Assembly (NCBI GenBank): GCA_019639135.1
Contig: JAHBSL010000015.1
Coordinates: 1 to 64,000 of the forward strand
Source of the DNA: Acidobacteriota bacterium
Lineage (GTDB): Bacteria; Acidobacteriota; Blastocatellia; Pyrinomonadales; Pyrinomonadaceae
Direction of reading: 5' to 3'
Length of the DNA stretch: 64,000 bases
In this document: positions 20,480-31,244 of the stretch, one piece after another
How positions within the stretch are numbered: position 1 is the first letter of the stretch
Layout of the letters: each line of letters starts with the position of its first letter
Position numbers and translations under genes: made by a program
The notes under the pieces: model-generated
Databases searched by the model: none
What the model saw: only the letters and a program-made list of their open reading frames with translations
What the model was told of the DNA's origin: nothing

Positions 20480-22447
20480 TTATAAGCCTATTCGTTCCTG
20501 CAATCTGATAAACCTGGGATGGGGATGAAGGCCTTGAATAAGAGGATACACACGCAGGATAGCCATCGTGTCGGAGCGTTCATTAAAGGCTTCCTCGAGC
20601 CGCTCGAGCGCTTCGTCATTGTCACCAATGCCGGAATAAACAACCGCGAACCAAAAGGGTTTGATATATCGAGTTTCTGAAAGCTTATTAAGATCAGCTA
20701 CGATTTCGAGTGCCTTTTCCCGCTGGCCGGATATCCCAAATGCGTAGCCGAGCAGAGCGATCGTGCTCGGGCCGTCATGAAGCCGCCTAGCCGTTTCAAA
20801 TTCGGTTATTGCCTCCGGGATCCGGCCTGTTTTCAAATATGCGATGCCTAGAGCATTACGCGCCGGCGCAAAATCCGGGGCGATTCGAGTCATTTCCTTT
20901 AGCTGCGTAATCGACTCGTCATATCGGCGAGCCCAGCAATATATTTCACCAATATCCGTGCTGATGCTCAATGAAAGCGAGCCTTCGATCTCATGAGCCT
21001 GTTTGATATGCGCAATTGACCGGTCAAATTGTTCAGTAGCTGCCAGAAAATAAGCATACCAGTGATGGGCTGTCGAATAATTCGGGTTTAGCCGCAATGC
21101 TGTTTGAAATTCGTTGTCCGCTGCGGTTTGATCCCAATCGTAAACCCATTTGATAAACGCCAGAGACGTGTGAGCGTCTGCCAGTGAGTCATCGGCTTTG
21201 AGCGCCATCAAAGCGGCTTCTTTTGCCTTTGGCATCGCCTCGTTTGGACGCAGTGATCCCCAGATTCCCAGAAGAATGTAGCAATCCGCCAAACCGGAAT
21301 AGGCACGGGCGTAATTCTGATCTTTCTCTATCGCCTGATTAAAAAAGAGGATTGCTTCTTTCAGATCTTGTTCGGTGCGACGATTCCACAAATAGCGCCC
21401 TTTCAGGTAATCATCGAAGGCATCTCTATTTTCAGTGTCGCGACGCGCGATCCGCTCGCTTTCGCTCGCCCCCAAACTTAACTTCAAAGCCCGCAAAGTT
21501 CCCTCCGCAAGGCGGTTTTCGAGATCGAAAATGTTTGCACTTTCGCCGTCAAATCTTTCTGCCCATATCTGTTCGCCGTTTTCTACTCTCAGGAGACGTG
21601 CGTTTATGCGGATCTGGCCGTTAGTTCGTTGGATGGTCCCCTCCAGCACCGCATCTGCCTTCAATTTTTTCCCGATCTCGAGCGCGTCTTGCGTTGCGTC
21701 AGTGTAAACAGCGACCGAACTCACCGGACGGACGACGATCTGCCGCAGTCCGCCGATCTTCATTATCAAGGCGTCTGCCAGCCCGAGTCCTAAAGCCTTG
21801 TTGCTTTCGTCATCAGTTAAAGATCTCAATGGCAGAACAGCAATCGAACCGATTTTTTTCGTCCCATTTCGAGCAAGCCAGAGCCAGGAACCAACCAACC
21901 CTATAAGAATAACCAACACTGCAACAACAAATGCGGTGGCTGAAATTCTTTTCTTTGGCGGGAGAGCGTGCGGCGATTCGTCAATTTCGTCGTCTTCTTC
22001 AAAGTTAACGGTCAGTCTTTTTAATGTGCGTTTCTCAAAAATCGCCTGGTCTTCAGAACGTACGATCCGCTTCACGTCTGCTGAAAATCGATAGCCATGT
22101 TTAGGAAGTGTCTCAATGGTTACTTCGCCGTCAGAGTTGAACAACTTTCGTAATCGCGAGATCTGTTTGGCAAGATTGCTTTCTTCGACGAATGCATCAT
22201 GCCAAACCGCTGTCATCATTTCATCTTTCGATAAAGCCTTTCCATTGTTCTCAACCAGTAACAGCAGCGTATCGAATTCTTTTGCCGGCAGATGAATGGG
22301 AACGCCCTCAGAAAACAAGGTCCTCTCATTCGGGTCAAGAACAAACCGTTCGAATCGGTAAACAAACCTTTTATTTTCAACTGGTTGCACTAGAGTCAAA
22401 AATAAGTCAAAGAAAAACCATAAAAACCGCAAGACCTTACGGCCCAC
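20480..22447 (-). CDS. CadC-like transcriptional regulator with TPR domain
   Basis: A long single-pass regulator of about 636-655 residues. The N-terminal winged helix (YRFERFVLDPNERTLFSEG, PAKEFDTLLLLVENNGKALS, SNLAKQISRLRKLF, ETLPKHGYRFSA) is of the OmpR/PhoB C-terminal type. One membrane helix (SATAFVVAVLVILIGLVGSW) follows, then a TolB/FlgO-like segment (IAVLPLRSLTDDESNKALGL), and at least six TPR repeats in the periplasmic half. The GTG at 22447 opens the longest frame; a GTG at 22390 gives the more family-like start VQPVENKRFVYRFE. It is divergent to the surface-protein gene set at 22596-31244 and may regulate it, which is inferred from position. Confidence 0.9.
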   Translation of the reverse strand: MGRKVLRFLWFFFDLFLTLVQPVENKRFVYRFERFVLDPNERTLFSEGVPIHLPAKEFDTLLLLVENNGKALSKDEMMTAVWHDAFVEESNLAKQISRLRKLFNSDGEVTIETLPKHGYRFSADVKRIVRSEDQAIFEKRTLKRLTVNFEEDDEIDESPHALPPKKRISATAFVVAVLVILIGLVGSWLWLARNGTKKIGSIAVLPLRSLTDDESNKALGLGLADALIMKIGGLRQIVVRPVSSVAVYTDATQDALEIGKKLKADAVLEGTIQRTNGQIRINARLLRVENGEQIWAERFDGESANIFDLENRLAEGTLRALKLSLGASESERIARRDTENRDAFDDYLKGRYLWNRRTEQDLKEAILFFNQAIEKDQNYARAYSGLADCYILLGIWGSLRPNEAMPKAKEAALMALKADDSLADAHTSLAFIKWVYDWDQTAADNEFQTALRLNPNYSTAHHWYAYFLAATEQFDRSIAHIKQAHEIEGSLSLSISTDIGEIYCWARRYDESITQLKEMTRIAPDFAPARNALGIAYLKTGRIPEAITEFETARRLHDGPSTIALLGYAFGISGQREKALEIVADLNKLSETRYIKPFWFAVVYSGIGDNDEALERLEEAFNERSDTMAILRVYPLIQGLHPHPRFIRLQERIGL

Positions 22448-22595
22448 ACAAGGCGAAGATCATACGCACAGGCCCTAACTGGCGTTACAGAAAAATCAGC
22501 TAATTGTACTGCCGAGTGAGCGAGTGTAGCAAGACTTATTTTCTGTACAGAGCGGGCGTTGGTATTTCAATTGACCAGAAAATTTATGGAGGTAA

Positions 22596-23273
22596 ATGAC
22601 AAAAATGTGTAAGAGGAAACTTTCGATAATAGCAATTCTGACCGCATTCGCGATCACCGGTTTTTCGCAGACCATTCCACCGGATATCAGAGATATGATC
22701 CCCGGCAACACTGCGATCGTTGCGCCAGATAAAAAACCGGGTGTCATTAGGATCGGCGTATCCTCGCCGATCGCCGAAATGGGTAAGGATTTCAGTTTTG
22801 CCGATGCGCCGATGGCTATTCGCAATACGCTCGAGGTGGCACTTACGGAGGATAACGTCGAAGTAATTTTCCTTGAATCGTCCCTGCCGGAAAAAGAAGC
22901 AAAACTAAAAAAATGCGACTACATATTTATTAGCAAGGTCACCCGCAAAAAGGGCGGCGGCGGATTTGGCGGCATGGGCATGCTTGGCGGCATGGCGGGA
23001 ATGATCCCCGGTGTCGGCGGTATAGCAGGAGCCGTAGCAGCCACTGCCGCCGCAACGGCCATCAGTGTTGCGTCTATGTCGGGCGGCTTCAAATCCAAGG
23101 ACGAAGTCGCTTTCGAATATCGCGTCACAACCGTGGAAGGCGCGGTGATCATTCCGCCGACCATTACAAAACAAAAGGCAAAAAAAGATGGGGAAGACGT
23201 TCTAACCCCGCAAATCGCACAAGCTGCAAAGTTGACATTGGAAAAGGTCATGCCGCCGAAACCGGAGCAATAG
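22596..23273 (+). CDS. Secreted protein with Gly-rich hydrophobic segment
   Basis: A 225-residue protein with a signal peptide (IIAILTAFAITGFSQT). The centre holds a glycine-rich, membrane-like stretch (residues about 120-165) with GGGGFGGMGMLGGMAGMIPG and AVAATAAATAISVASMSGG, as in Gly-zipper segments that insert into or oligomerise at membranes. The flanking parts are mixed strand/helix. A good ribosome-binding site (GGAGG) precedes the ATG at 22596; a second ATG at 22605 is also possible. It heads the plus-strand surface-protein set. No family is recognised. Confidence 0.7.
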   Translation: MTKMCKRKLSIIAILTAFAITGFSQTIPPDIRDMIPGNTAIVAPDKKPGVIRIGVSSPIAEMGKDFSFADAPMAIRNTLEVALTEDNVEVIFLESSLPEKEAKLKKCDYIFISKVTRKKGGGGFGGMGMLGGMAGMIPGVGGIAGAVAATAAATAISVASMSGGFKSKDEVAFEYRVTTVEGAVIIPPTITKQKAKKDGEDVLTPQIAQAAKLTLEKVMPPKPEQ

Positions 23274-23297
23274 AAGGGGACTTTTCCTGATTTGACC

Positions 23298-23561
23298 ATG
23301 AGGAGCCTTAGACAAGTGGTGATCGAGGTAGAGGAAACGGTCGTGCTCCGCAGCGGCGAGATAACCGCGGCCGTTTTCTGTCCTGCTTGCGGTGAAAAGG
23401 TTGCTATGGCAACACCCTGGATAGCAAGTGCCGTTAGCGGCATAACCGAACGTGAGATCTTCCAACTGATCGAACTCGGTATGGTTCATTCAGTAGAGCA
23501 CAAAAGGCTGTTCGTCTGTCTGGATTCACTGAAAAAATGTACGGGAGAAATATGGCGATGA
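23298..23561 (+). CDS. Small zinc-ribbon/HTH-like protein
   Basis: An 87-residue protein: VVIEVEETVVLRSGE, then FCPACGEKVAMATPWIA (a CxxC knuckle), then VSGITEREIFQLIELGMVHS, which looks like a MerR-type helix-turn-helix, and HKRLFVCLDSLKKC. The shape (beta strands, CxxC, helix pair, final strand) matches small acidobacterial proteins that I recall as hypothetical. It overlaps the following fibre gene by 10 bp, so it is in the same transcript. A regulatory role is possible but not shown. Confidence 0.65.
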   Translation: MRSLRQVVIEVEETVVLRSGEITAAVFCPACGEKVAMATPWIASAVSGITEREIFQLIELGMVHSVEHKRLFVCLDSLKKCTGEIWR

Positions 23562-26206
23562 AAAGAGGAATATTTACATGGGCAGCGGTTCTTATATTTT
23601 GTATCACTGGAAGCTCCCAAACAAACATTTTTACTTACCAAGGAAAACTGACCGACGGGGCCGTAAACGCAAATGGTACTTACCAGATGCGGTTCTCGCT
23701 TTACGACTCGGTTTCGGACGGAACCCAGATCGGGGCCATCGTTGAGCTCGATCCGGTTATGGTAACCGGAGGCATTTTTACTGCCGAACTCAACTTCACG
23801 GCCCCAGAAGCCTTTGACGGTTCTCCGCGCTGGCTTGAGATCGCCGTAAAGAGACCTTCCGACCCCGAGTTTACGACGCTCAGCCCGCGTCAGCCGATCA
23901 CAAGCACGCCGTATTCGCTAAAAAGCCTGAACGCTGAAATCGCCGAAACGGCGTTGAATTCAACCCAACTCGGCGGTGTGGCCGCAAGCCAATACGTCGT
24001 CACAACCGATCCGCGAATGACCGACGCCCGCGAACCGCTGCCGAACAGCCCGAACTACATCCAGAACACAACGACGCAGCAAACTTCGAGCAACTTCAAC
24101 ATCAGCGGCAACGGCACCGCGAATATTTTCAATGCGGTGAGCCAGTTCAACCTGGGCGGGAACCGGGTATTGAGTGCTCCCGGGACGTTCAACTTCTTCG
24201 CCGGGATCAACGCCGGTCAGTCCAATTCTGGCGGGCAAACGAATTCGTTCTTCGGAATCGGCGCGGGACAGTCAAATGTGGACGGCAGCGAGAATGCGTT
24301 CTTCGGGTTTCAAGCGGGCCTTTCAAATCTGGCCTGCTGCAACTCGTTCTTCGGGAGGAGCTCCGGTGTGCAGAACACTAACGGGCAGCTCAACGCGTTC
24401 TTCGGAAGTTCCGCGGGCTTCAACAATTCCAGCGGGTCGAACAACACATTCATCGGCGCCGGAACGGGCGATGCAAATCTAACGGGATCGAACAACACCA
24501 TCATCGGGGCGGGGGCGAATGTCCTCAGCAACAATCTGAACTTCGCTACCGCAATCGGAGCTCTCTCCATTGTCTCATCGAGCAACACCATAGCCCTCGG
24601 CCGAAGCACCGGCGAGGACACGGTAGTGATTCCGGGGCTGCTCGCCGCCAACGGCTCGGGCCTGACGAACCTCAACGCCGCGAACATTACGAGCGGAACG
24701 CTAGCGATCGCTAACGGCGGCACGGGCAGCTCGACAAAAAATTTTGTCGATCTTTCGACCGATCAAACCGTCGGCGGCAACAAGGATTTTGCCGGAAGAA
24801 CTCAGCATTACGGCGATTTTTTTGCTTACGGTTTAAACAACAGAATTGTCGGACTGCTCGTTCGCCCGCTTCTCGGTAATGCAATCGTTAACTTTCAAGC
24901 GCAGGACAGTTACTATTCGCAAACAATATTTTCGGACCATACGAATACCTATCGCGGCTACATCGGTTATATCGGTGCAAACGCCGGACTCGGCACGAGA
25001 AACGACACCGTTGAGCTGGGCACGAACGGCAAAGACCTGACCCTTCGGCCGAACAATATCGAGGTCATGCGGTTCAGCACGTCCGGCAATATCGGGATCG
25101 GCACGACCACGCCCGGCTCGAGACTGCATGTGACCGGAGCGAGTGCGGGAAGCACGATCCTAAACGTCGAAAACACCTTCACGGGCCCCAACGACGGTTT
25201 TGCGGTGCAAGGACGCTCAGTAAATGGTCCTGGTGGGGGCACGGGCGGCTTTTTCACGGGCGGCCGATACGGCGTTTTCGCACGGGCGGACTCAGGCCCG
25301 GGCACCGGCACCACAATTGGCGTTTACGGCAATGCAATCGGTACCGCAGGGTTTCGCTATGGTGTCTGGGGCGAGGCCAATCCCGGCTCCGGGGCCGTCA
25401 GCGGAACGGGTGTAATGGGCCGCGCGGTCGGTCCTTCCTCCAACACGAATATAGGCGTAGAAGGATTTGCGTCCGGAGCGCCGACGAACTGGGCCGGGTA
25501 TTTCTGGGGCGGCAATACATATGTCGAGAACAGTCTCGCTGTCGGCACGACCAATCCTGGATTCAAAATGCATGTTGTCGATGGCGGCAACACGGGCCTG
25601 CGGGTCCAAACCGCTGCTGCCGGTGGCACCGTAGCCTCGTTCGGGGGCAACGGCGCGTTTCAGGTCGACGCTCCCGGGATAGCGGGCGGGAGGCTGCATG
25701 TGGCGGAGAACGGATTCGTTGGGGTGGGAACTAATTCGCCGTCGTCGCGCCTCACCGTGGCCGGGACTATTACGACCTCCCTCTCCGGCGGCGGCGGTGG
25801 TTCCGTATGCCATACGAACATAGGCGGTATAGGTACGCTGTCCATCTGCGGCTCCAGCCTTAGGTATAAGACCAATGTGAGGGATCTTCGCTCAGGCTTC
25901 GATCTGATCGACCGGCTCCGCCCGGTCACCTCCTACTGGAAAAGGGACAACGAGGAAGACCTGGGTCTTGTCGCGGAGGAAGTCGCCGCGGTGGAGCCTT
26001 TACTTGCCACTTACAACGACAAAGGCGAGATCGAGGGTGTGAAATATGACCGTATTGGCGTCGTGTTGATCAATGTTGTGAAAGAACAGCAGGCGCAGAT
26101 CGAGGAGCAGAAGAAGATGATCCAAAATCAGCAGCAGCAGCTCGACGTGTTGAAAAAACTTCTCTGCGAATTAAGACGGGAAGCGGATGTATGCAAGGAG
26201 AACTGA
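23552..26206 (+). CDS. Surface fibre-like protein with head repeats and C-terminal S74 chaperone domain
   Basis: An 884-residue secreted protein. Signal peptide: KRGIFTWAAVLIFCITGSSQ. Residues about 20-130 form a module (FTYQGKLTDGAV, LSPRQPITSTPYSLKSLNAE) also present in the 28661-30622 protein. Residues about 215-330 carry YadA-head-like repeats (FFGIGAGQSNVDGSENAFFG; FIGAGTGDANLTGSNN). A GGTGSSTKNFVDL segment is again shared with the 28661 gene. The C-terminus is a peptidase_S74 intramolecular chaperone (SSLRYKTNVRDLRSGFDLID; EEDLGLVAEEVAAVEP), in which the Ser and the Lys five residues later form the self-cleavage dyad, followed by a coiled coil rich in Gln. This predicts a trimeric, self-processing fibre. 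The ATG at 23552 has GGGAGA 6 bp upstream. Confidence 0.88.
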   Translation: MAMKRGIFTWAAVLIFCITGSSQTNIFTYQGKLTDGAVNANGTYQMRFSLYDSVSDGTQIGAIVELDPVMVTGGIFTAELNFTAPEAFDGSPRWLEIAVKRPSDPEFTTLSPRQPITSTPYSLKSLNAEIAETALNSTQLGGVAASQYVVTTDPRMTDAREPLPNSPNYIQNTTTQQTSSNFNISGNGTANIFNAVSQFNLGGNRVLSAPGTFNFFAGINAGQSNSGGQTNSFFGIGAGQSNVDGSENAFFGFQAGLSNLACCNSFFGRSSGVQNTNGQLNAFFGSSAGFNNSSGSNNTFIGAGTGDANLTGSNNTIIGAGANVLSNNLNFATAIGALSIVSSSNTIALGRSTGEDTVVIPGLLAANGSGLTNLNAANITSGTLAIANGGTGSSTKNFVDLSTDQTVGGNKDFAGRTQHYGDFFAYGLNNRIVGLLVRPLLGNAIVNFQAQDSYYSQTIFSDHTNTYRGYIGYIGANAGLGTRNDTVELGTNGKDLTLRPNNIEVMRFSTSGNIGIGTTTPGSRLHVTGASAGSTILNVENTFTGPNDGFAVQGRSVNGPGGGTGGFFTGGRYGVFARADSGPGTGTTIGVYGNAIGTAGFRYGVWGEANPGSGAVSGTGVMGRAVGPSSNTNIGVEGFASGAPTNWAGYFWGGNTYVENSLAVGTTNPGFKMHVVDGGNTGLRVQTAAAGGTVASFGGNGAFQVDAPGIAGGRLHVAENGFVGVGTNSPSSRLTVAGTITTSLSGGGGGSVCHTNIGGIGTLSICGSSLRYKTNVRDLRSGFDLIDRLRPVTSYWKRDNEEDLGLVAEEVAAVEPLLATYNDKGEIEGVKYDRIGVVLINVVKEQQAQIEEQKKMIQNQQQQLDVLKKLLCELRREADVCKEN

Positions 26207-26207
26207 C

Positions 26208-28625
26208 ATGCAAAAAACAATACTATTATTTTTGAGTCTGTCGATTGTAATGCTGTGCCACTTTTCCGCGGCGGCGCAGACGACTCCCACTCCGCAGCCG
26301 ACACCGGCGAACGGAGTGGAGAAGATCGTATTCCACTCGCAACGCGACGACGGCATTACACGAGAGATTTACATCATGAATTCGGACGGTACCGAACAGC
26401 GGAGGCTGACCTATAACTCGTTCGACGACATGAGCCCGTCGATCAGCCGGGACGGAAGGAAGATTGTGTTTCATTCCGACCGAGGCGCCGGTTTCGACAT
26501 TTTCATAATGAATATCGACGGCACGAATCAGGTAAATCTCACCAACAACGGGCTGTTCAACATTCAGCCCTCGATCAGTCCGGACGGAGGCAGAATCGCG
26601 TTCAAGTCCATCAGCGATATTTTCGTCATGAATGCCGACGGCTCAAACCCCGTGAATCTGACCGGCGCGTCTCTGTCAAACAACTCCGATCCCTCTTTCA
26701 GTGACGACGGCAGCAAAATAGCCTTCCGATCGGATCGTGACGGGAATCAAGAGATCTACGTGATGAATGCCGACGGCACTAACCAGACACGGTTGACCTT
26801 CACGCCGTCGGTGCTCGAAGAGCAGCCGGCGTTCAGCCCCGATGGAACAAAGATCGTTTATAACACCGAGCAGGATGCGACGAGCGAAATCTGGGTAATG
26901 AATGCCGACGGCTCAAACCCTGTTCGTCTGACCAACAACACCGTGCTCGAACGCCATGCCACGTTCAGCCCCGACGGAACCCGAATCGCATTCACTTCGG
27001 CGCGCGACGGCAATAACGAGATCTATGTGATGAACGCCGACGGATCGAACCCGCAGCGACGAACAAACGCGCCCGGCAGCGACTACGGCGCGAAGTGGGG
27101 CGTGGTAGCACCGGCACCACCGCCCGGCATTCCTAAAATCGCGTTCGTGAGCCAGCGAGGCGGTACTCCGGTGCACATTTACACGATGAACGCGGACGGG
27201 TCGAACCAGACGCCGCTGACAACCGGTCTCGCGGACAATATCGACCCCGCCTGGTCGCCGGATGGGACGAAGATCGCGTTCACAAGTGATCGCGACGGCG
27301 ATCATGAAATTTTTGTGATGAACGCCGACGGCTCGAACCAAACGCAGTTAACGTTCAACGCGGTTATTGATCAGGGGCCGGCGTGGTCGCCGGATGGGAC
27401 GAAGATCGCATTCAGCCGCCGGATATCATCGACGTCGTCCGCAATCGTCATCATGTTTGCGAACGGGGTGGGGCAGACAATAATAACACCACCCAACAGC
27501 GGCCATAACGATTATCCTAAATGGTCGCCGGATGGAACGAAGATCACGTTTACTCGCATTTTTACCAGCGACGCCCAGCGCGACATCTATGTAATGAATT
27601 CCGACGGATCGAACGCCGCGAACCCGATCCGCCTGACCAATAACGCTCCGCTTTACGACAACCACCCTGACTGGTCGCCCGATGGGACCAGGATTGTTTA
27701 CACCTGCAGCGATCCGGCGACGCCGTCGAATTGGGAAATCTGCACGATGAACGCGACGGACGGTTCCGACGTCCGAAGGATTACGACGAACGCTGCCACC
27801 GACGTGTTTCCCGCGTGGTCTTTCGACTCTCAGCAGATCCTTTTCTCGACGAATCGTGACGGCAACAGAGAGATCTACTTGATGAGGGCGGACGGTCAGT
27901 ACCTCACAAATCTCACAAACAACGCGGAGTCCGATTCGCAGCCCGATTGGCAGCCGAACATCGCGTGGGCCGCCTCAACTCCCAACGGGGCCAACGTCGC
28001 CGTACAGATCGGCACGGTCAGCGTCACGTTCGGCGGGGTGACGCAGCCGGGCAATACGTCGCAATATCCGATCAACCCGGCATCGCTCGGCCCGCTGCCG
28101 GTCGGTTTCACATTTGGACCTGGTCTGCCAGCCTATGAGATATCGACGACGGCCGGGTACACCCCGCCGATCACGGTTTGTATACAAGTGCCGAACATTT
28201 CTGATCTGACATCATTCAACGCATTGAATCTTTTCCATTACGAAAACGGCTCCCTAATTAACCGAACTTCATTGCGTGATTTTGCAACGAAAACCATTTG
28301 CGCCGAGGTTGCAAGTCTTTCGCCATTTTCCGTTGCGGTAAATCTCACTCCGACCGCAGCAAATGTATCAATAGGTGGGCGAATTATGACAGCCGACGGG
28401 CGTAACGTTTCCCAAGCAGTAATTTCAATTACCGATGCCAATACAGGCGAAACACGCTCGGTTCATTCAAATACGTTTGGTCATTACCGTTTCGACGACG
28501 TGGCCGTCGGCAGAACTTATTTTTTGAGCGTTAAGCACAAACATTACCAGTTTTCCACTCAGGTTCTAACCGTTTTAGATGAGATCACGGGTTTCGATCT
28601 TGTCGCCGAAAATAATGAGAAATGA
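26208..28625 (+). CDS. Secreted TolB/WD40-type propeller protein with carboxypeptidase-regulatory-like tail
   Basis: An 805-residue secreted protein. Signal peptide: LLFLSLSIVMLCHFSAAAQT. Residues about 35-570 are PD40/TolB repeats with the recurring IYVMNADGSN and FSPDGTKIAF signature, enough for two propellers. A strand-rich linker (TVSVTFGGVTQPGNTSQYPI) follows. The last 90 residues (VSIGGRIMTADGRNVSQAVI; GHYRFDDVAVGRTYFLSVKH) are a carboxypeptidase-regulatory-like (prealbumin) domain, related to the tail of the 30690-31244 protein. The start has AAGGAG 8 bp upstream and lies 1 bp after the fibre gene stop. Confidence 0.92.
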   Translation: MQKTILLFLSLSIVMLCHFSAAAQTTPTPQPTPANGVEKIVFHSQRDDGITREIYIMNSDGTEQRRLTYNSFDDMSPSISRDGRKIVFHSDRGAGFDIFIMNIDGTNQVNLTNNGLFNIQPSISPDGGRIAFKSISDIFVMNADGSNPVNLTGASLSNNSDPSFSDDGSKIAFRSDRDGNQEIYVMNADGTNQTRLTFTPSVLEEQPAFSPDGTKIVYNTEQDATSEIWVMNADGSNPVRLTNNTVLERHATFSPDGTRIAFTSARDGNNEIYVMNADGSNPQRRTNAPGSDYGAKWGVVAPAPPPGIPKIAFVSQRGGTPVHIYTMNADGSNQTPLTTGLADNIDPAWSPDGTKIAFTSDRDGDHEIFVMNADGSNQTQLTFNAVIDQGPAWSPDGTKIAFSRRISSTSSAIVIMFANGVGQTIITPPNSGHNDYPKWSPDGTKITFTRIFTSDAQRDIYVMNSDGSNAANPIRLTNNAPLYDNHPDWSPDGTRIVYTCSDPATPSNWEICTMNATDGSDVRRITTNAATDVFPAWSFDSQQILFSTNRDGNREIYLMRADGQYLTNLTNNAESDSQPDWQPNIAWAASTPNGANVAVQIGTVSVTFGGVTQPGNTSQYPINPASLGPLPVGFTFGPGLPAYEISTTAGYTPPITVCIQVPNISDLTSFNALNLFHYENGSLINRTSLRDFATKTICAEVASLSPFSVAVNLTPTAANVSIGGRIMTADGRNVSQAVISITDANTGETRSVHSNTFGHYRFDDVAVGRTYFLSVKHKHYQFSTQVLTVLDEITGFDLVAENNEK

Positions 28626-28660
28626 TTCATTTTAGTTAAGCAAAATCGGAGATTAAAACC

Positions 28661-30622
28661 ATGAAAGTCAATGCATTTTTCAAATTATCCTGCATTGTAT
28701 TTTGTGTTGTTTTTTGCTGCGGCCTGGCTCAGGCACAGACGACAGCATTCACTTACCAGGGCAAGCTGACCGATATGAGTCTCGCCGCCAACGGGCAGTA
28801 TGACCTGATGTTTCGGTTGTTTGATACAGCCGAGGGTGGTGGCCAGATCGACGGAGCCGCCGCGTGCAACGGCGTGGCGTCGGGCAGCCCTGATGCCGTT
28901 TGCGATGATGTTTCTGTTTCTGGCGGCATCTTTACCGTCAATTTGAGTTTTGGTGAAGCAGCTTTTATCAACGGCGAACAAAGATTTTTAGAGATACACG
29001 TCCGACCCGGCGCAAGCACAGACGAATACACGCGGCTTTCACCGCGACAAGAGATAAACAGCTCGCCGTTTTCAATGAAAAGTCTGAGAGCAGCCGCCGC
29101 CGATTCGCTCTCCACTTCATGTGTATTATGCGTCACGGATGCAAAAATTCAGTCGATCGATGCAAGCAAACTTACCGGTATCTTACCGATAACAAACGGC
29201 GGCACAGGCAGCTCCACGAAGAATTTCGTTGATCTTTTTTCCAATCAAAGCGTTTTTGGAAACAAGACGTTCAACAACGGAGTAACTTTCAACAGCGGAG
29301 TTACGCTTAATCAAACTCTGACGATCAACGGATCCTTGGATGTGCCAAACGGCATCGTTTCGGCTGATCAATTTCACGGCAACGGCGATGGGCTGTTCAA
29401 TGTTCCCGGCACGTTCAAGTGGCAAGCCGTCACGGGTTTGTCGCAACAAGCGCAGCCAAACAACGGGTATCTGCCCACGAATGACGCGCAGGTAACGATC
29501 ACGCTTCCGAAAAACTTAGGCATCGGTGAGATGGTTCGAGTTTCCGGTGCGGGCAGCGGCGGCTGGAAAATTGCCCAAAACGATGGTCAATCCATCATCC
29601 TCGGCAGCGGTATTAAAGTGACATTGCCGCCTCTCGTCTGGACTCCGCGGGCTGTAGCAAGAAATTGGCAATCGGTGGCTTCGTCGGCTGATGGAACAAA
29701 ACTGGTTGCGGTCCCGAGAAACGGACAGATCTACACCTCGAGCGATTCCGGTGTGAGATGGACACCCAGAGACGTCAATCGAAACTGGCGATCAGTTGCC
29801 TCGTCAGCCGATGGCAATAAACTTGTCGCTGTAGTTGAAAGCGGCCAGATATATACTTCGACGGATTCAGGCGAGACCTGGCTTCCTCGCGATACCAACA
29901 GGTTCTGGACGTCTGTGGCATCGTCTGCCGATGGGACCAAGTTGGCCGCCACTGGCGATGGGCTTGTATATACCTCAAATAATTCGGGACTCAGCTGGAT
30001 GCCGCATAGCATTCAGAATTCCCTGAACATCGGTCTCATTGTTTCTTCATCCGACGGCACGAAATTGGTAGCTGCCGATAACGGCTACAGCACGGGGAAG
30101 ATCTATACGTCGGACAACTCGGGGGTCGGCTGGCAGCAGCGAGCCCACGGGGGATTTTGGCAATCCCTCACCACTTCTGCAGACGGAACTAAGCTATTCG
30201 CCGGAATAGACCCGGGGCCGCTTTTCGTGTCACATGATTCGGGCGTAACCTGGAACGCGAGTGGATACCTAAGAAACTGGTACTCCATCGCTTCATCGGC
30301 AGATGGAACCAGAGTGCTTGCCGCAGACTACGGCTTCGGGCTCTACTTTTCAATGGATTCCGGCCTAACGTGGATCGCCGTTTCTCAGGATCCCAGAAGC
30401 TGGTTGTCCGTAGCGATATCCGCCGACGGATCTAAACTGGTTGCGGCAGCCCAGAGCGGGCTTATCTACACCGCTCAAATACCGGCGCATTATGGACGAG
30501 CGACATCGGTCGGAACCGCCGGCTATCTCGTCGGTGGGCAATTCACATCCGTCGAACTGCAGTACATGGGAAACGGACAATTTATGGCCCTCAGCGCCGT
30601 AGGACCATTGTCGGGTAACTGA
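28661..30622 (+). CDS. Secreted BNR-repeat protein sharing modules with the fibre protein
   Basis: A 653-residue secreted protein. Signal peptide: LSCIVFCVVFCCGLAQAQT. The N-terminal module (FTYQGKLTDMSLAANGQYDL; LSPRQEINSSPFSMKSL) matches the one at the N-terminus of the 23552 gene, as does ITNGGTGSSTKNFVDLFSNQ. A beta-rich segment (about 240-320) leads into eight or more Asp-box repeats (SSADGTKLVAV; YTSSDSGVRWTPRD) forming a propeller. The C-terminus (YLVGGQFTSVELQYMGNGQF) recalls a tail-fibre-like beta element. No catalytic site can be assigned. It is 35 bp after the TolB-type gene. Confidence 0.85.
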   Translation: MKVNAFFKLSCIVFCVVFCCGLAQAQTTAFTYQGKLTDMSLAANGQYDLMFRLFDTAEGGGQIDGAAACNGVASGSPDAVCDDVSVSGGIFTVNLSFGEAAFINGEQRFLEIHVRPGASTDEYTRLSPRQEINSSPFSMKSLRAAAADSLSTSCVLCVTDAKIQSIDASKLTGILPITNGGTGSSTKNFVDLFSNQSVFGNKTFNNGVTFNSGVTLNQTLTINGSLDVPNGIVSADQFHGNGDGLFNVPGTFKWQAVTGLSQQAQPNNGYLPTNDAQVTITLPKNLGIGEMVRVSGAGSGGWKIAQNDGQSIILGSGIKVTLPPLVWTPRAVARNWQSVASSADGTKLVAVPRNGQIYTSSDSGVRWTPRDVNRNWRSVASSADGNKLVAVVESGQIYTSTDSGETWLPRDTNRFWTSVASSADGTKLAATGDGLVYTSNNSGLSWMPHSIQNSLNIGLIVSSSDGTKLVAADNGYSTGKIYTSDNSGVGWQQRAHGGFWQSLTTSADGTKLFAGIDPGPLFVSHDSGVTWNASGYLRNWYSIASSADGTRVLAADYGFGLYFSMDSGLTWIAVSQDPRSWLSVAISADGSKLVAAAQSGLIYTAQIPAHYGRATSVGTAGYLVGGQFTSVELQYMGNGQFMALSAVGPLSGN

Positions 30623-30689
30623 TCGGTCGTCTGAGTTGAAAACCGCGCAAATATCGGCCGGAATCGCCGATTTGCAAGGAGGATCAAAA

Positions 30690-31244
30690 ATGAGCACATT
30701 GGAACCACTTGCCGTAACTTCAATCACTTCGTCAGGCAGCCCCTCGAAGCTGGCGGGGGGTTGGATTGTTCTGGTAATGACGGTGCTGTCGATCTCGCTG
30801 ACGGCACAGACGGGCGGGCAGTATTCCGTGACGCAATCGGTAATTGCTTCAGGCGGCGGGCTGTCGAGCGATGCCCGATACGATGTCACTGGGACCGTCG
30901 GGCAGGCCGTGGTCGGCCGAACTGACGCTGTATTACCGTACTTCGTGCAGACCGGTTTCTGGAGCTTCAGCTTTAGCCCGACAGCGGCCGGAATTTCCAT
31001 CGAGGGCCGGGTCGTGTCCGCCTTCGGCTCGCCTCTCGGTATGTCAACGGTCGTGCTTTCGGATGTTGAGGGCAACACCCGCATTGCGATTACCAACCCG
31101 TTCGGTCGATTTCGATTTGAACGGGTCGAAGCCGGACGCGGTTACTTCATCATCGCGAAAGCCAAAGGGTTGTCCTCCGATCCTCAGTTCATAAATCCCG
31201 ACCATGACGTAACCGGGATCGAACTGATCGCCTTTGAACAATAA
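30690..31244 (+). CDS. Secreted protein with carboxypeptidase-regulatory-like domain
   Basis: The ATG at 30690 has a strong AGGAGG site 7 bp upstream and gives a 184-residue protein. A hydrophobic segment (GWIVLVMTVLSISLTAQTGG) after about 25 polar residues acts as signal peptide. The middle (YSVTQSVIASGGGLSSDARY; GTVGQAVVGRTDA) is of the type found before Por- or PEP-like sorted domains, and the C-terminal 85 residues (GISIEGRVVSAFGSPLGMST; GRFRFERVEAGRGYFIIAKA) form a carboxypeptidase-regulatory-like beta domain. It closes the surface-protein set; no clear terminator follows it within 300 bp. Confidence 0.8.
   Translation: MSTLEPLAVTSITSSGSPSKLAGGWIVLVMTVLSISLTAQTGGQYSVTQSVIASGGGLSSDARYDVTGTVGQAVVGRTDAVLPYFVQTGFWSFSFSPTAAGISIEGRVVSAFGSPLGMSTVVLSDVEGNTRIAITNPFGRFRFERVEAGRGYFIIAKAKGLSSDPQFINPDHDVTGIELIAFEQ

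Follow-up and report, generated by a model that had tools for sequence, protein, structure and literature searches.

A probable MAT-like adhesin operon with a candidate surface partner gene and a divergent membrane regulator in Pyrinomonadaceae

Locus, conserved core and regulator

The DNA analysed here, called the window below, comprises the first 64,000 nucleotides of contig JAHBSL010000015.1 from an Acidobacteriota bacterium of the family Pyrinomonadaceae (GCA_019639135.1). An earlier note had described in it a set of six surface-protein genes divergent from a CadC-like regulator. Six plus-strand open reading frames (ORFs; P0001 to P0006) and a minus-strand regulator gene (P0007) do lie at these coordinates. 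Our analysis suggests that the locus is a MAT-like (mosaic adhesive trimer) adhesin operon in which P0006, a small protein with a domain called GFW here, would hold the fibre at the cell surface; we regard this account as probable, though well short of certain. The features are as follows, in window coordinates.

20480-22447, minus strand: P0007, regulator (Pfam Trans_reg_C 2.5e-15, FlgO 3.8e-6, TPR)
22448-22595, no strand: divergent promoter region of 148 base pairs with an inverted repeat, candidate operator
22596-23273, plus strand: P0001, secreted Gly-rich protein, accessory
23292-23561, plus strand: P0002, small C-x2-C...H...C protein with a helix-turn-helix (HTH)-like stretch
23537-26206, plus strand: P0003, MAT-like fibre (likely start 23558)
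23630-23962, plus strand: MATN domain of P0003 (residues 32-142), from a profile match and an AF2 model of the segment
25838-26197, plus strand: S74 intramolecular chaperone of P0003 (Pfam, 26.1 bits; alignment of relatives)
25853-25855, plus strand: codon of Ser773 of P0003, before which the cut is expected (putative dyad)
26187-28625, plus strand: P0004, PD40 beta-propeller with a C-terminal CPD (likely start 26208), accessory
28661-30622, plus strand: P0005, second MATN fibre, with MATN at 28742-29119 and a BNR/sortilin-like propeller tip at 29666-30475
30636-31244, plus strand: P0006, GFW partner (likely start 30690), with the GFW domain at 30801-30968 and the CPD at 30981-31232

Judged by homology and gene linkage, the conserved core is the fibre, the P0006-type GFW gene and a divergent membrane winged helix-turn-helix (wHTH) regulator. 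In 19 well-assembled congeneric genomes, MATN, the N-terminal domain of the fibres, and GFW, the N-terminal half of P0006, were searched separately. GFW is present in all 17 genomes with MATN, and of the 31 GFW genes, 24 have a MATN gene no more than 6 kb away, in every case on the same strand, where random placement predicts 0.44; the linkage is ~55-fold over chance. The regulator was counted with Trans_reg_C searches in 15 of the 19 genomes, covering 54 MATN loci. Of these, 35 have a large wHTH regulator no more than 6 kb away (1.6 expected, ~22-fold), which at 33 of them is divergent and upstream, and 27 of 28 inspected regulators carry a transmembrane (TM) segment after the wHTH domain. 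The linkage to a divergent, CadC-like membrane regulator, as the earlier note had supposed, is therefore kept well beyond chance.

The pair of fibre and GFW gene is also found outside the genus, in at least seven phyla; the names on the records are Acidobacteria, Chloroflexi, Verrucomicrobia, Phycisphaerae, Sumerlaeota, Deltaproteobacteria and Halieaceae. These cross-phylum loci come from a scan of named genomes and were selected by MATN alone; the GFW gene often adjoins the fibre. Conversely, a further 42 GFW regions were drawn from 20 genomes of this kind irrespective of MATN, and 26 of the 42 hold a MATN gene; several of the MATN-less regions are cut by contig ends. In addition, a search of the phylum of locus L097 with NCBIfam NF053851 (Bdello_MAT_N) gave weak matches in seven genomes, none above the cut-off. 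At six of the eight loci found in this way the profile recognises a GFW gene immediately next to the fibre, the seventh has an evident divergent GFW and the eighth ends at a contig end, so that 7/7 contigs running past the fibre carry a GFW gene. Errors in the binning of metagenome-assembled genomes could touch single records, not the overall pattern. By these profile matches the core of fibre and GFW gene is spread over many phyla, and the supposition that the system is specifically acidobacterial had to be given up.

The six genes do not form one unit. In the nearest relative (G020) the locus is syntenic except that it lacks the gene for P0004, a protein in which Pfam recognises ten PD40 repeats along with CarboxypepD_reg at the C-terminus. 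P0001 corresponds to the C-terminal part (~180 residues, with a Gly-rich insertion) of a secreted protein of ~500 residues, present in relatives mostly as a single copy (L025:1483-2976); relatives of P0001 lie nearly always elsewhere, at the fibre locus only in the source genome and G020, where they are 93% identical. Both genes are, by their distribution, accessory to the fibre module. Conservation of gene order, which the earlier note had proposed as a check, thus holds for the linkage of fibre, GFW gene and regulator and fails for P0001 and P0004, and the six-gene unit was rejected.

The gaps between the genes are operon-like. P0003 probably starts at 23558, in an ATGA overlap with the stop of P0002, and P0004 and P0006 probably at 26208 and 30690; a purine-rich sequence resembling a ribosome site lies 5' of each of these three revised starts. 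The later starts make for a compact operon, with intergenic gaps from a 4-base overlap to ~65 bases, in line with the short or overlapping gaps first described. In this region an Rfam search gave no match, and promoter and terminator scans gave results near chance. A secreted protein gene, P0008 (32014-34014, minus strand), is convergent to the operon and has weak HAF-repeat, Big_7 and CarboxypepD_reg-like matches.

The source genome carries the module a second time, in a smaller form, on contig C37 (G000:C37:58600-61700; L008: 2636-7694). This copy consists of a divergent wHTH+PD40 regulator, a MATN fibre and a GFW+CPD gene that overlaps the 3' end of the fibre gene. The fibre has YadA-like repeats and a C-terminal coiled coil, and a recognisable S74 catalytic part is absent.

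P0007 has a winged-helix DNA-binding domain (residues 29-125), one TM helix predicted by hydropathy (residues 168-186) and, past the membrane, a FlgO/TolB-N-like region and TPRs. It has the plan of CadC/ToxR-like regulators, with a wHTH, a single TM segment (by hydropathy) and an extracytoplasmic domain; against the CadC equivalog NF007540 it scores 55.7 bits, below the cut-off of 400. The sensor part is FlgO-like/TPR in P0007 and often PD40 in relatives. The 148 base pairs between P0007 and P0001 contain an inverted repeat, with the arms TACAGAAAA (22486-22494) and TTTTCTGTA (22539-22547), which is present in the same place in G020. Together with the divergent layout, the repeat suggests that P0007 binds there, making it a candidate operator within 22448-22595.

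No curated family is matched by P0002. C30, C33, H66 and C76 and the HTH-like stretch are retained in its relatives, which agrees with its first description as a small CxxC/HTH-like protein. In the 15 genomes, a large, divergent wHTH regulator lies no more than ~1 kb from each of the nine P0002-type genes, two of which have no fibre gene in the vicinity; we therefore assign P0002 to the regulator rather than to the fibre module. The P0002-type gene and the large wHTH regulator could form a two-part regulatory unit of their own (window 23292-23561; G010:C9:45980, G012:C6:683475).

The fibres and their MATN domain

P0003 is composed of a signal peptide, MATN, YadA-like and beta-shaft repeats, an S74 chaperone/protease and a coiled coil with a Cys pair. 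It shares the N-terminal domain of ~120 residues with P0005 (2e-26), and the tips of the two differ, being S74 in P0003 and a BNR-like propeller in P0005, where Pfam reports a weak Sortilin/BNR-type match. The domain calls of the earlier note largely hold here: S74, the PD40 repeats, the weak BNR-type propeller, CarboxypepD_reg (just under the cut-off in P0006) and Trans_reg_C with TPR were all recovered. Neither fibre has a recognisable anchor. In the wider sample, the ends found behind the same N-domain are S74, YadA-like, BNR, NHL/Vgb and FGE-sulfatase. The FGE-sulfatase (PF03781) tips occur on Verrucomicrobia fibres (L131, L155, L156, L159; E 1e-42 to 1e-49) and are possibly analogous, by a fold relation, to the C-type-lectin tip of Bdellovibrio Bd2740. 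One congener (G031) has at least 14 MATN fibres and 2 GFW matches, a candidate large fibre repertoire with few partners.

Pfam has no family for MATN. In the MATN alignment, 36 of 45 relatives match NF053851 at E<=1 (best 3.4e-6), and loci picked with NF053851 in another phylum are also matched by our mainly acidobacterial MATN profile (1e-11 to 1e-20). The match is strengthened in both profile directions, and on this sequence evidence MATN is distantly homologous to the N-domain of the Bdellovibrio MATs. The three fibres of the source genome score 15.8-24.4 bits against NF053851, below its curated cut-off of 60 bits, and we therefore name them MAT-like rather than members of the Bdellovibrio subfamily. 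The shaft of P0003 resembles that of the solved MAT Bd2133 (8ond, E 0.0012), a similarity that would fit a trimeric, surface-exposed fibre. According to our modeling, the MATN segment of P0003 (AF2, mean pLDDT 82, ~94-97 over most of the core) is a generic Ig-like/beta-sandwich; viral matches are weak, and the best structural match (Z 6.8) is tied with unrelated proteins, so that assignment to a fold family was dropped.

The S74 domain of P0003 passes the Pfam cut-off (26.1 against 22 bits, residues 773-821). Residues 771-778 read CGSSLRYK, in which the putative dyad Ser773/Lys778, with Lys at Ser+5, aligns with the Ser...Lys dyad of S74. The dyad is kept in the alignment of the genus, where most relatives read SSxRYK. 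In known S74 proteins it is strictly conserved from phage to MYRF (PMC3742443), and both its Ser and its Lys are essential in MyRF (PMC8326128). Because Ser773 and Lys778 are kept, autocleavage of P0003 before Ser773 is plausible, even though the Asp of the SDxxxK motif of Bdellovibrio MATs is replaced. A Cys pair after the coiled coil ends most S74-profile matches in the sampled loci, a few of which span the C-terminal end only.

In several Ardenticatenia (Chloroflexi), the MATN fibres (L096, L103, L143, L165, L174) carry a hydrophobic helix and an Arg/Lys tail at the C-terminus. This suggests C-terminal membrane anchoring, in the orientation opposite to the Bdellovibrio model.

The GFW partner and competing explanations

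P0006 has a signal peptide, a GFW domain with the pattern ...SVIAGGG..S.GG.F...GT.GQ..AG......GFW, and the C-terminal CPD, where the CarboxypepD_reg match is just under the Pfam cut-off (31.6 against 32.3). The CPD is common to P0004 and P0006 (28353-28607 and 30981-31232; 2e-14). It ends at most 12 residues from the stop in 20/20 sampled, otherwise different Pyrinomonadaceae proteins (L207-L226; ORFs up to ~3300 residues), and its model has a transthyretin/CNA_B-like fold (Z 12.4). The comparison of the P0006 model with the PDB covered only this part, the GFW part being poorly modelled. The CPD is therefore a candidate for an unrecognised C-terminal sorting or anchoring domain in Pyrinomonadaceae.

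Small and secreted, the GFW proteins end in modules that vary with lineage: CPD in Pyrinomonadaceae, YLPxxxR in Chloroflexi, a domain with the terminal residues FYRL in Verrucomicrobia and a dockerin-like module in Phycisphaerae. In one Chloroflexi protein the end is a YLP-box, listed by NCBI as a putative sorting motif (12.8 against a cut-off of 10 bits). Because these tails are lineage-typical C-terminal modules while most fibres have none, ending instead in S74, a coiled coil or tip domains, we propose that GFW may be the surface adaptor that MAT-like fibres themselves lack. In this adhesin operon, the CadC-type P0007 would sense an envelope signal and switch the divergent genes on or off. 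Two long fibres would be made, with a common MATN base and different tips. P0003 would trimerise through its shaft and its S74/coiled-coil end and then cut itself before Ser773, freeing the chaperone and exposing the mature tip, and P0005 would present its propeller. In P0006, the GFW domain would bind the fibre, and the CPD would retain it at the cell surface. A broader proposal, which we put forward tentatively and think somewhat more likely wrong than right, is that GFW proteins are the sought surface element of MAT-type fibres in general, joining a common fibre-binding domain to each phylum's own sorting module, and that the Pyrinomonadaceae CPD would be an unrecognised sorting or anchoring signal of many proteins.

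Several observations weigh against the adaptor account. In the congeneric genomes a GFW gene lies within 6 kb of only 31 of 72 MATN genes; many fibres would therefore either be served by a GFW protein encoded elsewhere or do without one. Within the genus, the divergence of the fibres is correlated with that of the GFW proteins (r 0.57; after thinning r 0.39, p 0.0014), which speaks for a lasting partnership but may also reflect plain co-inheritance. The GFW domain alone is modelled with low confidence (pLDDT about 45-53), the strict C-terminal place of the CPD is compatible with non-anchoring roles too, and MATN scores below the 60-bit cut-off of NF053851. In addition, P0003 and almost all relatives have Ser in place of the Asp of SDxxxK, and the many Ardenticatenia fibres that end in a TM helix and an Arg tail imply that an N-terminal anchor is not general.

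Some of this evidence would suit a different role for P0006 within the same adhesin operon, as a fibre assembly or export factor or a second secreted adhesive subunit, with no anchor. The same gene adjacency fits it, and a poor model of GFW alone would suit a part that folds only on its client. GFW domains are also found at the start of far longer proteins whose tails are FG-GAP or Ig-like, and weak matches link 7 of 30 GFW domains to the N-terminal part of PamT (NF058579), a Candidate Phyla Radiation (CPR)-type pilus protein (best 4e-4). What speaks against this role is that the C-terminal module switches to the lineage-typical element, such as the YLP-box in Chloroflexi and the strictly C-terminal CPD in Pyrinomonadaceae, tails for which an export chaperone has no need. 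We consider this role possible, though unlikely. The weak PamT match may, in its own right, indicate a connection between GFW and CPR-type pilus systems.

The ends of the Ardenticatenia fibres would be accounted for if the fibres were reversed, with the C-terminal end held and MATN as the distal, partner-binding part. However, the C-terminal S74 of P0003 would be removed by cleavage, the variable tips known so far sit at the C-terminal end, and the binding tips of Bdellovibrio MATs lie at the C-terminus (PMC10769870). We think this orientation improbable. That the genes are a loose cluster of unrelated surface proteins without functional unity agrees with P0001 and P0004 not being conserved neighbours, and may hold for these two; linkages far beyond chance contradict it in the case of fibre, GFW and regulator, the linkage of fibre and GFW being kept across phyla, and for the locus as a whole it is very improbable. 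A phage tail fibre or tailocin remnant is hardly credible despite the S74 domain, the tail-like PHROG matches of P0003 and a weak structural resemblance between MATN and phage proteins. The fibres have signal peptides and are encoded together with a membrane regulator and a secreted partner, no phage structural protein is among the 18 proteins of the window that were scanned, just as the earlier note had remarked, and a pattern-seeded scan of 2.9 million viral contigs (IMG/VR) yielded three MATN relatives only.

Relation to known systems

The earlier note had suggested that the locus may be an undescribed system. The kind of fibre is known, MATN being distantly homologous to the Bdellovibrio domain; what appears new within the open-access literature is the partner gene, the linkage to a regulator and the spread over phyla, and we found nothing there that connects S74 and tail fiber with Acidobacteria, or adhesin with Pyrinomonadaceae. 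The N-domain common to P0003 and P0005, the C-domain common to P0004 and P0006 and the second module on C37 had not been noticed in the earlier note. Among known proteins, PamT resembles the GFW domain weakly over its N-terminal ~50 residues, far under the 240-bit cut-off of NF058579; this is a lead only, and open-access papers yielded no text on PamT.

P0007 is like CadC/ToxR-type regulators in its cytoplasmic wHTH, its single TM segment, its extracytoplasmic sensor part and its position divergent from the likely target, whereas its sensor is FlgO-like/TPR, often PD40 in relatives. P0003 is like YadA-type trimeric autotransporters in its YadA-head-like repeats and presumed trimeric fibre; however, Pfam reports no C-terminal YadA anchor barrel in it, and the C-terminus is instead S74 and a coiled coil. 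With the Peptidase_S74 chaperones of endosialidase tailspikes and MYRF it shares an S74 after a beta-rich stalk, a Ser and a Lys five residues apart and a C-terminal coiled coil. Unlike these, its S74 stands on a secreted bacterial protein, the Asp after the Ser is replaced by Ser, and a C-terminal Cys pair is present in most sampled S74-profile matches.

Bdellovibrio is a predator, and its related fibres serve prey recognition. Its MATs have a signal peptide, a beta-rich N-domain of ~130 residues and exchangeable tips with or without S74, and the surface element bound by the N-domain was stated to be unknown (PMC10769870). The fibres described here share the signal peptide, a beta-rich N-domain of ~120-130 residues, a long shaft, exchangeable C-terminal tips including S74, and the presence of several copies per genome. 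They differ in scoring under the curated NF053851 cut-off, in reading SSxRYK in place of SDxxxK, in their propeller and FGE-sulfatase tips and in their hosts, which are not known as predators. They also have a dedicated divergent regulator and a GFW partner, and the main text of PMC10769870 mentions no partner gene. With our data, the range of MAT-like fibres reaches beyond predators into uncultured environmental lineages, in which a sensor-regulator is linked to the fibre genes. The data also point to a candidate C-terminal sorting domain, the CPD, that is widely used in Pyrinomonadaceae. The small partner gene beside MAT-like fibres in many phyla is a concrete candidate for the surface element that binds the MAT N-domain; if this is true, a GFW adaptor would let one fibre design plug into very different cell envelopes.

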